Origin: Phormidium tenue FACHB-1052
GTDB taxonomy: Bacteria; Cyanobacteriota; Cyanobacteriia; Phormidesmidales; Phormidesmidaceae
DNA: 64,000 nt
Direction: 5' to 3'
Assembly: GCF_014696675.1 (NCBI RefSeq)
Contig: NZ_JACJQN010000009.1
Coordinates: 62,001 to 126,000, forward strand
The stretch's first letter is position 1, and each line of letters starts with the position of its first letter. This document shows, one piece after another, positions 46,222 through 55,763 of this stretch. Position numbers and translations under genes: made by a program. The notes under the pieces are model-generated. The model did no database searches. It was not told the origin of the DNA and was given only the letters and a program-made list of their open reading frames with translations.

Positions 46222-46692
46222 TTAGATGGGTTTGGAGGTCAGCACTAGACGCAGCTTGGCGTGGATGAGGTTGAGCTGAGCCATACCCAGGTCGACGTCG
46301 CCTTCGACGACGACACCAGTGTCGAGGAGGCGATCGAGCAGCTCTAAAATGGTTGGGTTCTGGTTTTTTTGGCCGGGGTAATAGTTGCCCTCTTTGGGCA
46401 GCAGGGTGCCTATTTCCCCCAGGTCAATGTTGAGGTCAGCCGGGTCAACATCAAAAATTTCGCACATCGAAACGACCTGCTCTTCTAGCTTGCGCAGGCT
46501 GTCGGCGGCTCGTTCGAGGTCATTGTCGTCCAGGTCGCCCGACTCCATGCGGCGAATGACCTGAGCTTCCATCAGCTGCCGCACCAGCTCAATGACGGTG
46601 AGCAACAGCGGCGCTAGGCCCGCATCGGTTTTGGCGGGGGGCTGTAGCGCTAGCGTGGTCGACAGGTCTGGCTCGGCATTTTCGGAAGTCAT
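46222..46692 (-). CDS. gvpK: Gas vesicle protein GvpK
   Basis: 156 residues from ATG 46692. Core LVELVRQLMEAQVIRRM-like sequence (LIELVRQLMEAQVIRRMESG), then LERAADSLRKLEEQV and DLNIDLGEIGTLLP, are the GvpK signature. GvpK is an accessory protein needed for vesicle assembly. It is last in the gvpA-C-N-J-(X)-K series. It is convergent with the kinase gene, separated by a short G-rich repeat. Confidence 0.93.
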   Translation of the reverse strand: MTSENAEPDLSTTLALQPPAKTDAGLAPLLLTVIELVRQLMEAQVIRRMESGDLDDNDLERAADSLRKLEEQVVSMCEIFDVDPADLNIDLGEIGTLLPKEGNYYPGQKNQNPTILELLDRLLDTGVVVEGDVDLGMAQLNLIHAKLRLVLTSKPI

Positions 46693-46744
46693 AGCCACAG
46701 TCTAGTGCATCCCAAGGCAGGCGATTCTGCCTCTATAGCCCTGG

Positions 46745-47031: not shown

Positions 47032-47382
47032 CTAGCTCACGGGTTCGGCAGAGCGAAGGGCCTTGAGTTCGGCTTCTAGAGTTTCTAAACGGCTCTGAAG
47101 CTGTTGATTGGCTTCCAAAAGCTCGTTGGTGCGACTGCTGAGGTAGGGATCACTTTCCCACCAGTTAATGCCAATTTCGCGAGCTTTATCGACCGAGGAG
47201 ATAATTAGGCGAATGCGAATGCTCAGTAGCTCGGTAGAACCCACAGAGACCGAGATATCTCCGGCAATCACGATGCCTTTGTCGAGCACTCGCTCAATCA
47301 CGTCTACCAGGGAAGACCCCTGGGTGGCGGTAGCCATGCTGCGACCGGGTTGGGGGCGGGTCGCGGGGGTGGAGGGGGTCAC
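47032..47382 (-). CDS. gvpJ: Gas vesicle protein GvpJ
   Basis: 116 residues from GTG 47382, which has GAAGGT nine bases upstream; ATG 47337 would give 101 residues but has no ribosome site. The GvpA-like core is clear (SLVDVIERVLDKGIVIAGDISVSVGSTELLSIRIRLIISSVDKA), followed by a helical tail (ELLEANQQLQSRLETLEAELKAL). GvpJ is a minor shell or nucleation protein. It lies 12 bases after gvpN. Confidence 0.93.
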   Translation of the reverse strand: MTPSTPATRPQPGRSMATATQGSSLVDVIERVLDKGIVIAGDISVSVGSTELLSIRIRLIISSVDKAREIGINWWESDPYLSSRTNELLEANQQLQSRLETLEAELKALRSAEPVS

Positions 47383-47394
47383 GACGGATTACCT

Positions 47395-48759
47395 TCAGTT
47401 AGAACTCAGCTGGTAGCCCTGGAGCTGCCCATCAGTTTCCTGTTTTTCTATTAAGCCCTGATCGAGCATTGACTTGACCGCATTAACAGCCTGAAATCGG
47501 TTTAAGTCTAGAGCTGCCTCAATATTAACGAGAGATGCAGTACCGGTCGCGTCGAGATAGTCAAAAATGCGGGTTTCGATATCATCGGGGCTGACCTGCA
47601 CTCGGGCTATCTCTTCTGGCAAAGCCTCGGCCTCAGCGGGCGTTTCCACTACGGTTTCACCCTGAGGCTCAGGGATGACAGCCTCAGGGAGTGTTTCACC
47701 CTGAAGGTCTTGGGGTCCGATTACAGGCTGATCTTCGACTGCAACATCGTCTATGTCAGACTCAACCAGCGCCTCAAGGGGCTGGAGGGGAGCATCATCC
47801 TCTTCTTCGCCATGGAACCGGGCGGTAGGGTGGGCCTCAGGCTTGAGGCTAAGATCGTTGACCAGCGCGGCCTGGGACACCACAAAGCGGTTAAACAAGT
47901 TCCACAGGTGGCGGGTGGCGTCGGGGGCGGGCTCTTTGGAGCGGGCCAGCAGAATGTCGCTACACACGTCACGGAAGTCAGCGTTTTCGGCCAGGGGCAA
48001 AATGTCGTGGTCGTGGCAGATGGTAGCAATCATCAGACTGGGGCGCAGACTGGAGACCATGTCTGGGGCAACCGCCGACTGAAAGGCTTTGACCAATTGC
48101 ACAATTTGCAGCGCCGCTGAGCTGTCGATGCCAACCTTTTGCACCAAAATTTGCTGCTGAGCCAGTTCGTCAGGCTCGGGCATATTGATGGTGATTAGGC
48201 GATCTTGCAGCGCATCTTGGGTGCCGTGGACGCCGCAGTATTCTTCAGGGTTGGAGGTGAGAATGGCGCGGAAGTGAGGGCTAACGCGAATGTACTCGGC
48301 TCGGTTGTTGCTGGGGGGCAGCACCAGAAGTTTTTCTTCGAGGGCCGATAGCAGCACGTTATTCACTTCGGGGCGGGAGCGGTTGAACTCGTCGTACACC
48401 ATGGTGAAGCCTTCGCGGCAGGCCAGGGTGAGGCGTGAGTCAGTCCAGTTGTGGCGTAGCTCGTCTTCCACTTTCACCACGCTGTGGATGTAGTTATCGA
48501 CCACTTTTTTGCGGGTGTAGCCCGACTGGTTGCCGATCAGGTCTGAGGTTTTAAACTCATCATCGCCAAACAGCAGCATGATGGGGCGGGCCAGCAGGTC
48601 GGCCAGGTGCAGGGCCAGAGTGGTCTTGCCGGTACCAGCCGGGCCTTTGAGGTGGATTGAGTACCCCGATTGCAGGTACCGCAGGGCTCTGATGCTGGTG
48701 CGCTCTAGGGTGGGGGTGGAGACAAAGTTGCGGGGGCGGGCTTGGAGAACGGTGTTCAC
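47395..48759 (-). CDS. gvpN: Gas vesicle AAA ATPase GvpN with C-terminal winged-helix extension
   Basis: 454 residues, GTG start overlapping the gvpC stop (GTGA). A MoxR-type AAA domain: Walker [10 protein letters not shown] (near 40-48), Walker B MVYDEFNR (near 118), [15 protein letters not shown] and DRL. GvpN drives vesicle growth. Residues about 1-310 are standard. The rest is unusual: an acidic Pro/Glu linker and a final 60-residue domain ([31 protein letters not shown]) that looks like a winged helix. The same domain ends GvpC, next door. Confidence 0.92.
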
Positions 48760-49982
48760 AGAACGGCTTCCTCTTGGACGAGATAGGTACGGTCTTGCTT
48801 GACGATGAGATCTTTTTGGATAAGCGATCGCAGCGCGTCTACGGCCTGAAATCGGTTGATGCCCAGCTCGGTTTCAATTTCGCTGAGGCGGGCACCCTGA
48901 GCCAAATGCAGGTAGTTGTAAACCACCTCTTCAAGGGAAGGGGATTCGGGGGCGGGGGGCGATTCCACAGCCACCGCTGCCGGGGCGGGGGCGATGACGG
49001 GGGTAACTGGGGCAGCAACCGCACGGGTCGGAGCGGTCTTGGCCACGGTCGAGCGGGACGGAGCAACTTTAGCTGCCGGAGCAACTTTGGCTGCCGGAGC
49101 GGCCTTAACAAGCGCGGCTTTGGCTACCACAGGTTGTGGCGCGGCCTGAGGGGCCGCTTTGACTGGCGCTGTGGCCCGAGCGGGCACCGAGGTAACGGCA
49201 GGTCGGGTCGCCACTGGGCGAGGGGCTGGAGCCGTCTGAGCGACGGTAGCACCACCCCAGACCACGTGGGAGAGCTGGGCGCGCTGGGCCTGGAGCTGCT
49301 GCCGAAAGTCGGCCAGTTCGGCGAACATGGCATCGACGGAATCGGTAAGGGCGGCGCGATCGCTCTGGCGCTGCTCCTGGTTGACCACTGCTGCCTGCTG
49401 GCGCACAGCGGTCAGGTCTTTGAGGGTAGCCTGCACCTGCACCTGCAACTCTTCGACGTAGGCCGTGAGCTGGGGCCACAGTTCGGCCCGCACTATGGCC
49501 TGATCTTGGCGATAGCCCGCCAACTCCACGGCGGTTTGAGATTGAATGGCAACCACCTGCTGCTGAATTTGGCGCAGCTCTTGGGCAATCTCTAGGCGCA
49601 GCTCGCTGACGGTGGCTTGCAGCACTTGGCAGTCGTACTCTAGCTGCTGGCGCACTTCGGCGGCGCTGATTTCGCGATCGGTCTGGTAGTTGGCGAGCAG
49701 CAGTTCGGTATCGACCTGGAGCTGCTGAATATAGTCTTGGCGGGCCTGCTGCCGGGGCAAAATCTGGGCGGCGCGATCGGCGGTCGTTTGAGCTAGCCAT
49801 AGGGTGGTGTTAGCACGCAAGTCGGCCATCAGTTGGTCGAGGTCTTGACGCAACCGCACAGCGTGGGTTAACCGGTCAGCCTGCCAGCGCTCTAGGTCAG
49901 CAGAGACTTGATCCCGCCGGTTAACCACCTCGCTCTGGCGCAGCTGTCGGGCGGCTTGCCACTGGTCATAAAGTGCTGTCAC
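48756..49982 (-). CDS. gvpC: GvpC-type gas vesicle protein with C-terminal winged helix
   Basis: 408 residues from GTG 49982 (AAGGGGAG upstream); known GvpC proteins are about half as long. Residues about 1-230 are long amphipathic helices in degenerate repeats near the GvpC length of 33 ([49 protein letters not shown]). This would bind outside the GvpA ribs and stiffen them. Residues about 245-345 are an Ala/Pro/Val linker of [10 protein letters not shown] type. The end is a winged-helix-like domain ([31 protein letters not shown]) also present in GvpN. It lies between gvpA and gvpN. Confidence 0.85.
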
Positions 49983-50272: not shown

Positions 50273-50491
50273 TTAGGCAGCGGGTACAGCAGCTTGAGCG
50301 GTCAGACCAACAGCTTCGGCGTACTTCAGGTAGGTGTCAACAGACGCGATAACAACACGGGCTTCGATAGCCAGCAGCTCAATCCCTACCAGAGAAACAC
50401 GAACCCAAGCATCAATTACGATGCCTTTGTCCAAAATGCGGTCAACAACTTCAGCCAAGCTAGAGGAAGAGTTTACTTTTTCAACAGCCAT
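50273..50491 (-). CDS. gvpA: Major gas vesicle protein GvpA
   Basis: 72 residues. GvpA is the rib-forming shell protein and is extremely conserved: [37 protein letters not shown] and [18 protein letters not shown] are all present. The length matches the usual 70-72 residues. AGGGA lies about ten bases upstream of the ATG. It is first in the cluster, with a hairpin after it. Only one gvpA copy is in the window. Confidence 0.98.
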
Positions 50492-54709: not shown

Positions 54710-55444
54710 ATGGCTGATCGCTACTATCTCTACGGTATTTTCCCGGCCCCTGGCCCCGCCGAGCTACCCCTGATGGGCTTAGACGAGCAGGTGGTACAGG
54801 CTCAACAGCTAGGCGACTTTACCTTTCTCTATTCCCTAGCTTGCCAGAAGCGCTACCTATCGAGCCGCAAGAACCTGCTGGGCCACGAAAAGGTGCTAGA
54901 AGCCGCCATGGAGCAGGGCCACCGCACGCTGCTGCCGCTTCAGTTTGGTCTGATTGTCGAAAGCTGGAACCAGGTGCAGGAAGATTTGGTGACTCCCTAC
55001 GCGGAAGACCTCACCCAACTGTTTGGGCGGCTCAACGGCTGCCGCGAGGTGAGTATTAAAGTGCAGTGGGAACCTTCCACCGAGTTGGAGATGATGATGG
55101 CCGAAAATGCCGACCTGCGGGCTCAGCGCGACCAGCTAGAGGGCACCCAGTTGGGCATGGAGCAGGTGATTTTCATCGGTCAGCAGATTGAATCGGCCCT
55201 AGAGGAGCGCAAGCAGGGAATTGTTGATCAGTTTCGCCAAGCGCTATCCCCGCTGGCAAAGGACGTGCTCGAAAACGCACCCCAAACCGATGTCATGATC
55301 TACAACGCTGCTTTCTTGATTCCTTGGGAGAGTGAGGCCGAGTTTAGCCAGGCGGTGGATGCCATAGACAGCACCTTTGGCGATCGCCTGCGCATTCGCT
55401 ATAACAACTTCACCGCTCCCTATAATTTCGCCCAGCTCAACTAG
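54710..55444 (+). CDS. gvpF: Gas vesicle protein GvpF/GvpL
   Basis: 244 residues. The opening YYLYGIFPAP, then GHEKVLEAAMEQGHRTLLPLQFGLIV, the charged helix (VSIKVQWE, AENADLRAQRDQLEGT) and YNAAFLIPWESEAEFSQAVDAIDSTFGDRL-type end match GvpF/GvpL, which bind GvpA and help start assembly. GvpF and GvpL are homologous, so the exact letter is not certain. It lies about 4.2 kb from gvpA on the opposite strand, followed by a strong hairpin and gvpG. Confidence 0.92.
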   Translation: MADRYYLYGIFPAPGPAELPLMGLDEQVVQAQQLGDFTFLYSLACQKRYLSSRKNLLGHEKVLEAAMEQGHRTLLPLQFGLIVESWNQVQEDLVTPYAEDLTQLFGRLNGCREVSIKVQWEPSTELEMMMAENADLRAQRDQLEGTQLGMEQVIFIGQQIESALEERKQGIVDQFRQALSPLAKDVLENAPQTDVMIYNAAFLIPWESEAEFSQAVDAIDSTFGDRLRIRYNNFTAPYNFAQLN

Positions 55445-55445
55445 G

Positions 55446-55493
55446 GGTTTAAGGTTTGGGTGCGAGGTGATCCTCGCACCCAAACCTTAAACC
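55446..55493 (+). terminator. 22-bp perfect hairpin between gvpF and gvpG
   Basis: Arms 55446-55467 and 55472-55493 (starting ggtttaaggtttgggtgcga) are exact complements around the loop tgat. There is no T-run, so it may be an mRNA-stability element or attenuator between gvpF and gvpG; it starts one base after the gvpF stop. Confidence 0.7.
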
Positions 55494-55517
55494 TTGCACC
55501 TTAATATTCCTCTTTCT

Positions 55518-55763
55518 ATGCTGTTTAAACTTCTCTTTGCCCCGGTGCTCGGCCCCATCGAGGGCATTAGCTGGGTTGCCAACAAACTGCTAGAGCAGGC
55601 CGATGTGCCCACCAACGATCTTGAAAGTCTGCAAAAGCAGCTGCTCGCCCTCCAACTCGCCTTTGACATGGGTGAGGTAGCTGAGGCAGATTTCGAAATT
55701 CAGGAAGAAGAAATTCTCCTCGCCATTCAAGCCATTGAGGATGAGGAAGACGAAGATGAGTGA
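55518..55763 (+). CDS. gvpG: Gas vesicle protein GvpG
   Basis: 81 residues from ATG 55518 (the frame extends eight codons further up through the end of the hairpin region). The GvpG signature is clear (LFAPVLGPIEGISWVANKLLEQ, LQKQLLALQLAFDMGEV, EEEILLAIQAIE). It ends in a strongly acidic tail (EDEEDEDE). GvpG helps assembly together with GvpF. It follows gvpF in the usual order. gvpV and gvpW are not in the window. Confidence 0.92.
   Translation: MLFKLLFAPVLGPIEGISWVANKLLEQADVPTNDLESLQKQLLALQLAFDMGEVAEADFEIQEEEILLAIQAIEDEEDEDE

Follow-up and report, generated by a model that had tools for sequence, protein, structure and literature searches.

The window analysed here, a stretch of 64,000 nucleotides from Phormidium tenue FACHB-1052, contains a gas-vesicle locus in which gvpA, gvpC, gvpN, gvpJ and gvpK follow one another on the minus strand, with gvpF and gvpG lying on the plus strand about 4-5 kb from gvpA. 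The features are as follows.

46222..46698, minus strand: gvpK with a GvpA-like C-terminal part (PF05121, 108.8 bits; PF00741, 50.7 bits)
47032..47382, minus strand: gvpJ (PF00741, 54.4 bits; best NCBIfam match halo_gas_GvpJ, below cut-off)
47395..48759, minus strand: gvpN, 454 amino acids, comprising AAA+ core, acidic linker and predicted winged-helix tail (TIGR02640, 363.2 bits, cut-off 266.8)
47398..47589, minus strand: GvpN predicted winged-helix tail, residues 391-454 (profile E 2e-17; AlphaFold2 pLDDT 88.9)
47590..47883, minus strand: GvpN acidic linker, residues 293-390 (net charge -23, counted over the 100 residues 293-392)
47884..48759, minus strand: GvpN AAA+ core, residues 1-292 (TIGR02640 match at residues 12-273)
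48756..48759, minus strand: GTGA, 4 bases shared by the stop of gvpC and the start of gvpN (read from the sequence)
48756..49982, minus strand: gene at the gvpC position, an open reading frame of 408 amino acids, comprising helical body, Ala/Pro linker and predicted C-terminal winged-helix tail
48759..48935, minus strand: GvpC predicted winged-helix tail, residues 350-408 (profile E 2e-25; AlphaFold2 pLDDT 91.2)
48936..49253, minus strand: GvpC linker, residues 244-349, Ala/Pro rich (net charge +9 over its 106 residues)
49254..49982, minus strand: GvpC helical body, residues 1-243, with a VVWG motif at its end
50273..50491, minus strand: gvpA (PRK09371, 137.6 bits, cut-off 100)
54710..55444, plus strand: gvpF (NF052351, 363.1 bits, cut-off 350)
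55494..55763, plus strand: gvpG (PF05120, 72.3 bits)

The closest relatives of this locus are of the Nodosilinea type, one of them (L031) being 98% identical over the GvpN core. The gas-vesicle genes are dispersed, the gvpF-gvpG pair (54710-55763) standing on the opposite strand away from the main set, and elsewhere in the same genome contig C1 carries, at 756355 and 794946, homologues of the ArsA-type ATPase of Nostoc gvp clusters and of GvpL/GvpF. In GvpK the GvpA-like (PF00741) part lies C-terminal to the GvpK domain.

The GvpN of the window passes the TIGR02640 cut-off. Its neighbour, lying between gvpA and gvpN, is named gvpC by position and kinship only, because the protein itself matches neither model of the 33-residue GvpC repeat (PF01304, TIGR02641). 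A PF01304 search of its own genome gave no match, nor did a search of its 14 control genomes. Five tailed relatives of the same layout were also scanned: L138 and L162 pass TIGR02641, L061 passes PF01304, and L076 and L091 pass neither.

The first-pass annotation had aligned the C-terminal ends of GvpN and GvpC by eye and likened them to a winged helix, and both observations are borne out, with the two open reading frames lying at the positions it gave. BLASTP aligns GvpN residues 394-441 with GvpC residues 350-397 (20 of 48 positions identical, E=1e-8), and a profile of 54 GvpC tails matches one of 66 GvpN tails over 62 columns with a probability of 99.9 (E=1.6e-31); of the 14 GvpN tails whose locus has a tail-less GvpC, the latter profile includes 11 and omits three. 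AlphaFold2 models obtained from the tail alignments have the same order of three helices and two strands (H-H-H-E-E) and match solved winged helices. In the GvpN tail the helices span positions 9-23, 28-35 and 39-52 and the strands 55-60 and 63-69; in the GvpC tail the helices span 9-20, 25-32 and 36-48 and the strands 52-55 and 58-61. The two models, each of an isolated tail, were likened through their common PDB matches and have the same predicted fold. Chain B of 5j6x, the Z-alpha domain of PKZ, superimposes at 1.8 Å over 65 residues of the GvpN tail (Z 12.1, 23% identity) and at 1.6 Å over 59 residues of the GvpC tail (Z 10.3, 19% identity). Foldseek E-values are modest, at best 1.9e-4 for the GvpN tail and 2.5e-3 for the GvpC tail. 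At E<=0.01 the Pfam TrmB family matches 43 of the 54 GvpC and 49 of the 66 GvpN tails; the tails of the window itself fall under the Pfam cut-offs, with 22.8 bits for TrmB (cut-off 25.6) and 21.8 bits for MarR_2 (cut-off 27). The linkers, too, are as first described, acidic in GvpN and rich in Ala and Pro in GvpC. By sequence and prediction, then, the C-terminal domains of GvpN and GvpC are shown to be paralogous winged helices set behind linkers.

The GvpC-tail profile was searched against 386 cyanobacterial genomes, an even draw from a larger group with at most 15 candidate places scored per genome. It gave 45 matches at E<=1e-6 in 25 genomes, all 45 lying inside gvpN or gvpC open reading frames, and it recovers the GvpN tail of its own genome. 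Since in these genomes and at this threshold it matches gvpN and gvpC only, the kinship of the two tails goes beyond generic winged-helix resemblance. One genome with a GvpN tail (G022, at L119) is missed by the profile at this threshold. Tails occur in nine family codes of the sample, and the tail, as judged by these matches, is a widespread domain of gas-vesicle genes and no quirk of the window. A third tail-bearing gene was sought and discarded as an idea: none was seen in the gvp regions with a threshold of E 0.01, or in the 386 genomes at E<=1e-6 among the at most 15 places scored in each. With the GvpC tail of the window as query, a phage collection gave no match at E<=1e-3 and a plasmid collection, at the same threshold, gave one, the gvpN of Nostoc sphaeroides; in 24 of the 25 plasmid records with a GvpN match, that match stops at or before query residue 274. 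Nor did the gvp regions, which are short, yield a clear candidate for a gene whose presence tracks the tails.

The distribution of the tails was scored over two sets of loci. The first derives from the 386 genomes, that of the window included, in which 58 GvpN proteins exceed the cut-off, in 56 genomes. The other 57 proteins correspond to 56 regions (one region with two GvpN counting once), some of them clipped by contig ends, and the window brings the rows to 57: 19 with both tails, 8 with the GvpN tail only, 27 with neither, none with the GvpC tail only, and 3 with a tail-less GvpN and no scored GvpC. The second set comprises 80 named loci chosen by similarity to the GvpN of the window, tail included, a choice which favours tails: 52 have both, 8 neither, 6 the GvpN tail only and 6 the GvpC tail only, while 7 have a tailed GvpN without a scored GvpC and 1 (L043) has a broken GvpN tail. 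The sets share some genomes (for example L051/L137, L050/L155 and L087/L124). L001-L030 were left out, longer stretches of the same places being used instead. Tail-less GvpC-like reading frames of up to 100 amino acids went unscored, as did the GvpN of L043; by hand, L066 was scored as having a tailed GvpC despite a broken frame and L161 as having a tail-less one. Lax rescans revealed no full-length tail in the tail-less GvpN (best 8.9 bits, partial) or GvpC proteins (best 1.7 bits).

Both genes are tailed in 71 of the 126 loci scored for both, bearing in mind that one of the two sets favours tails. Where GvpC has a tail GvpN has one in 71 of 77 loci, and where GvpC is tail-less GvpN has one in 14 of 49, being itself tail-less in the other 35. 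The expectation that the two tails always occur together therefore fails: 14 loci have the GvpN tail only and 6 the GvpC tail only, although some of these are near-copies or sisters. The six loci in which a tailed GvpC accompanies a GvpN that ends without a tail are L061, L063, L068, L077, L081 and L082. Such single-tail loci contradict strict pairing, but not a shared partner or self-association.

On a tree of GvpN cores, made by a quick method, with some long branches and its root not inferred, the GvpC tail changes state 4 times and the GvpN tail 15 times. In a starred clade of 41 rows GvpC is tail-less in all 40 rows scored and GvpN has a tail in 13 and none in 27; nine further loci with a tail-less GvpC fall outside that clade. 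The GvpC of the starred clade is mostly of the classical 33-residue-repeat kind, ending at or near FRQDLFxSIFG. Searched with a loose pattern, a motif ahead of the linker turns up in 71 of the 77 tailed GvpC, and in 47 of the 52 tail-less ones as well; the end of classical GvpC, FRQDLFxSIFG, seems to correspond to it. The short form thus resembles a long form truncated at this motif, the direction of change being inferred. The gene order and GvpN core found here are also those of classical cyanobacterial loci, but classical GvpC stops at or just past the motif whereas that of the window continues into linker and tail. The first-pass statement that classical GvpC and GvpN have no such tail holds for classical GvpC, and for the Halobacterium GvpN and GvpC and Octadecabacter GvpN examined; it does not hold for GvpN of the classical clade, which is tailed in some loci and tail-less in most. 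In one Planktothrix-like locus (L163, 9489-11849) there are two gvpC copies, both ending in the linker, and GvpN retains its tail; behind one of the two copies no tail remnant was seen in three frames.

A domain duplication had been put forward as the simplest origin of the pair. When the 108 tails of 54 loci are placed in a tree (52 columns), a single GvpN-tail clade is not rejected (p-AU 0.62), and the tree held to one such clade scores 6 log units above the free tree. The free tree has 6 label changes, and the single clade appears in none of 200 bootstrap trees; resolution is poor. A single duplication followed by losses is compatible with these data and is kept as the simpler reading, though the question is weakly answered by them. 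Concerted evolution was considered and dropped: a quick tree joined Nodosilinea-type GvpN and GvpC tails on a starred branch, but the careful tree did not reject one GvpN-tail clade.

The GvpN tail might bind the GvpC tail directly, mimicking and breaking GvpC/GvpC contacts at rib insertion. Fold and kept residues are alike in both tails, the two tend to be absent together, as counted above, and tails of the same genome are slightly more alike than cross pairs (similarity 0.434 and 0.421, permutation p 0.011, kinship uncontrolled). The haloarchaeal GvpN, moreover, binds the C-terminal domain of GvpC and pulls GvpC down as a monomer. Against such homotypic pairing stand the 14 and 6 single-tail loci, and the co-occurrence itself rests on few lineage events; a test on independent pairs, of which there were 5 and 2, was not significant and had no power. 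GvpN tails diverge similarly in both settings: at a core identity of 0.75-0.80 their identity is 0.41 (342 pairs) with a tailed GvpC and 0.43 (39 pairs) without, a comparison that covers surviving tails only and has, on the tail-less side, 67 pairs from 14 loci in all. In the 41 of 54 loci that have both control genes, GvpJ and GvpK, no co-divergence of the GvpN tail with the GvpC tail is seen beyond that of the GvpN core (partial r 0.020, p 0.35). In the same 41 loci the GvpN tail does co-diverge with GvpJ and GvpK beyond its core (partial r 0.220 and 0.214, p 0.001 each) and the GvpC tail hardly or not at all (0.10 with GvpK, -0.05 with GvpJ). On balance we consider direct tail-to-tail binding rather unlikely. 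The wider proposal of the first-pass annotation, that a shared domain lets GvpN and GvpC meet or bind a common partner, is favoured by the usual co-occurrence and weakened by the single-tail loci, the similar divergence of GvpN tails and the absent co-divergence.

Two further lines were explored. Opposite linker charges might act as glue; in 48 of the 49 loci with both linkers (one was dropped, its GvpN linker being shorter than 15 residues), that of GvpN is acidic in 46 and that of GvpC positive in 34 and negative in 12. The charges are uncorrelated (-0.07) and most tail-less GvpN are also acidic there; as a general device the idea was rejected. The GvpN of Phormidium sp. FACHB-1136 (L044, 8138-10423) has a linker of 390 residues, with a net charge of -101, before its tail. 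Residue coupling between the tails was likewise set aside, column pairs being inflated by kinship (mean z 2.3). The matching at position 37 (Phe with Phe in 26 and Val with Val in 7 of 54 loci) is a signal of this kinship type and was not used.

Residues were counted over both tails of 54 dereplicated loci. The third helix opens with Arg, at position 36, in all 54 GvpC tails and in 53 of the GvpN tails; position 40 is Val or Ile in 54 and 48, position 41 Asp, Glu or Asn in 54 and 45, and position 44 Arg or Lys in 52 and 47, respectively. Position 37 is mostly Phe or Val, with Ser or Thr in 10 of the 54 GvpN tails. Among the GvpC tails R36, D56, R57 and Y59 never vary, and Arg 44 hardly does. 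The retention of the same residues in both copies speaks for one shared kind of partner. In an alignment made by eye, the Val/Ile of position 40 and the acidic or amide residue of position 41 occupy the places of DNA-contacting residues in winged-helix DNA readers. In the Z-alpha domain a conserved Asn and a conserved Tyr contact Z-DNA; by eye, their positions would be filled in most tails by Val/Ile and Arg/Lys. The mean net charge is near zero (+0.1 for GvpN tails, +0.2 for GvpC tails) and this, together with the acidic or amide residue of the third helix, would argue, though not conclusively, against ordinary DNA binding.

We favour the reading, at a probability of about 0.45, that the tails are protein-docking modules which would direct GvpN and GvpC to a single place on the growing shell. 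The tails would be modules for docking to protein rather than DNA readers and, using the same third-helix residues, would recognise one type of site, on the shell or close to it. Docking would bring the AAA+ ATPase GvpN to the place where GvpC binds, and the two would compete for that site, or hand it over, during the addition of GvpA. The site might be another tail or a third Gvp protein; the lack of strict pairing, seen in the single-tail loci and in the absence of excess co-divergence, is the reason for preferring a shared docking site. Counted against docking are the occurrence of each tail without the other, the absent co-divergence of the two, the Ser or Thr at position 37 in 10 GvpN tails and the conserved Arg residues 36, 44 and 57 of the GvpC tails, these last being compatible with nucleic-acid binding.

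That the tails are old leftovers with hardly any function today, persisting by inertia and disappearing at random, seems to us distinctly improbable. The 15 state changes of the GvpN tail and its lower mean identity (41% among GvpN tails, 59% among GvpC tails) are what such leftovers might display, but the four invariant residues of the GvpC tail, its mere 4 state changes and the spread of tails over nine family codes all oppose it. Very unlikely, finally, is nucleic-acid binding, by which the tails would hold vesicles or mRNA or regulate gvp expression: the nearest solved folds include many DNA-binding winged helices, among them Z-alpha domains, ROK, MarR and ArsR-type regulators and the AspA centromere protein, the best Pfam matches are TrmB and MarR, and GvpC tails conserve arginines 36 and 57 without exception and 44 almost so, but charge and position 41 tell against it, and a coat protein and an assembly ATPase would be improbable DNA readers.

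How assembly factors, GvpN included, drive gas-vesicle elongation is described as an open question (PMC11445434). A domain present on both motor and coat, together with natural lineages missing either copy or the two of them, offers a direct experimental handle on the site of action of GvpN. There may also be a reason here for the existence of long and short GvpC, the short classical form having neither linker nor tail, and engineered vesicles could be anchored through a tailed GvpC.

Among known systems, the fold of the tails is shared by the PKZ Z-alpha domain (5j6x), MecR2 (4ija) and the MarR and ROK regulators, at the low identities to 5j6x given above; a fold common to tails and winged-helix proteins says nothing on function. 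The GvpC of Halobacterium salinarum is, according to Jost and Pfeifer 2022 (PMC9372576), a protein of helical repeats followed by an acidic stretch and a small C-terminal domain, to which GvpN binds. That domain holds a zinc-finger motif (PMC9501494). The GvpC tail of the window has no Cys, and Halobacterium GvpC does not match the tail profile, its GvpN being tail-less; as a zinc finger without a profile match, the haloarchaeal domain is therefore a different small domain at the same place. Yet another C-terminal domain, predicted to be helical, follows the linker in the GvpC of five loci (L156, 9141-10193; L157; L159, 7496-8617; L160; L161) and is confined to these among the regions searched; in L156 and L159 it has no Pfam match at E<=0.1. 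On the GvpN tree L156 and L157 form one group and L159-L161 another, both lying outside most of the other loci. That the GvpC helices are followed by different small domains in different lineages hints at a shared task. A bolder version of the docking reading, which we hold to be doubtful, is that the GvpN tail is a copy of a GvpC docking domain and would displace GvpC at the growth zone, the AAA+ motor opening the coat for ribs, with other lineages using unrelated GvpC domains at the same place.

The abstracts searched, which mostly lie outside subscription journals, make no mention of a winged-helix domain on gas-vesicle proteins. The closest precedent comes from Planktothrix, for which the accessible text of Pancrace et al. 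2017 (PMC5259702) reports that GvpC40 has, at its C-terminal end, 78% similarity with 60 residues of Geitlerinema GvpC, that a 28-residue stretch, 64% identical, is common to GvpC40 and GvpN, and that planktic strains have a shorter GvpC. Our Planktothrix-like loci, tailed in L162 and L164 and ending in the linker in L163, fit this account, their genus being inferred from the GvpC forms. As far as that text goes, the stretch was given no domain, fold, linker or function, and neither a duplication nor a distribution across the phylum was described for it. The similarity of GvpN and GvpC was therefore known in part before, and its fold and distribution add to that account.
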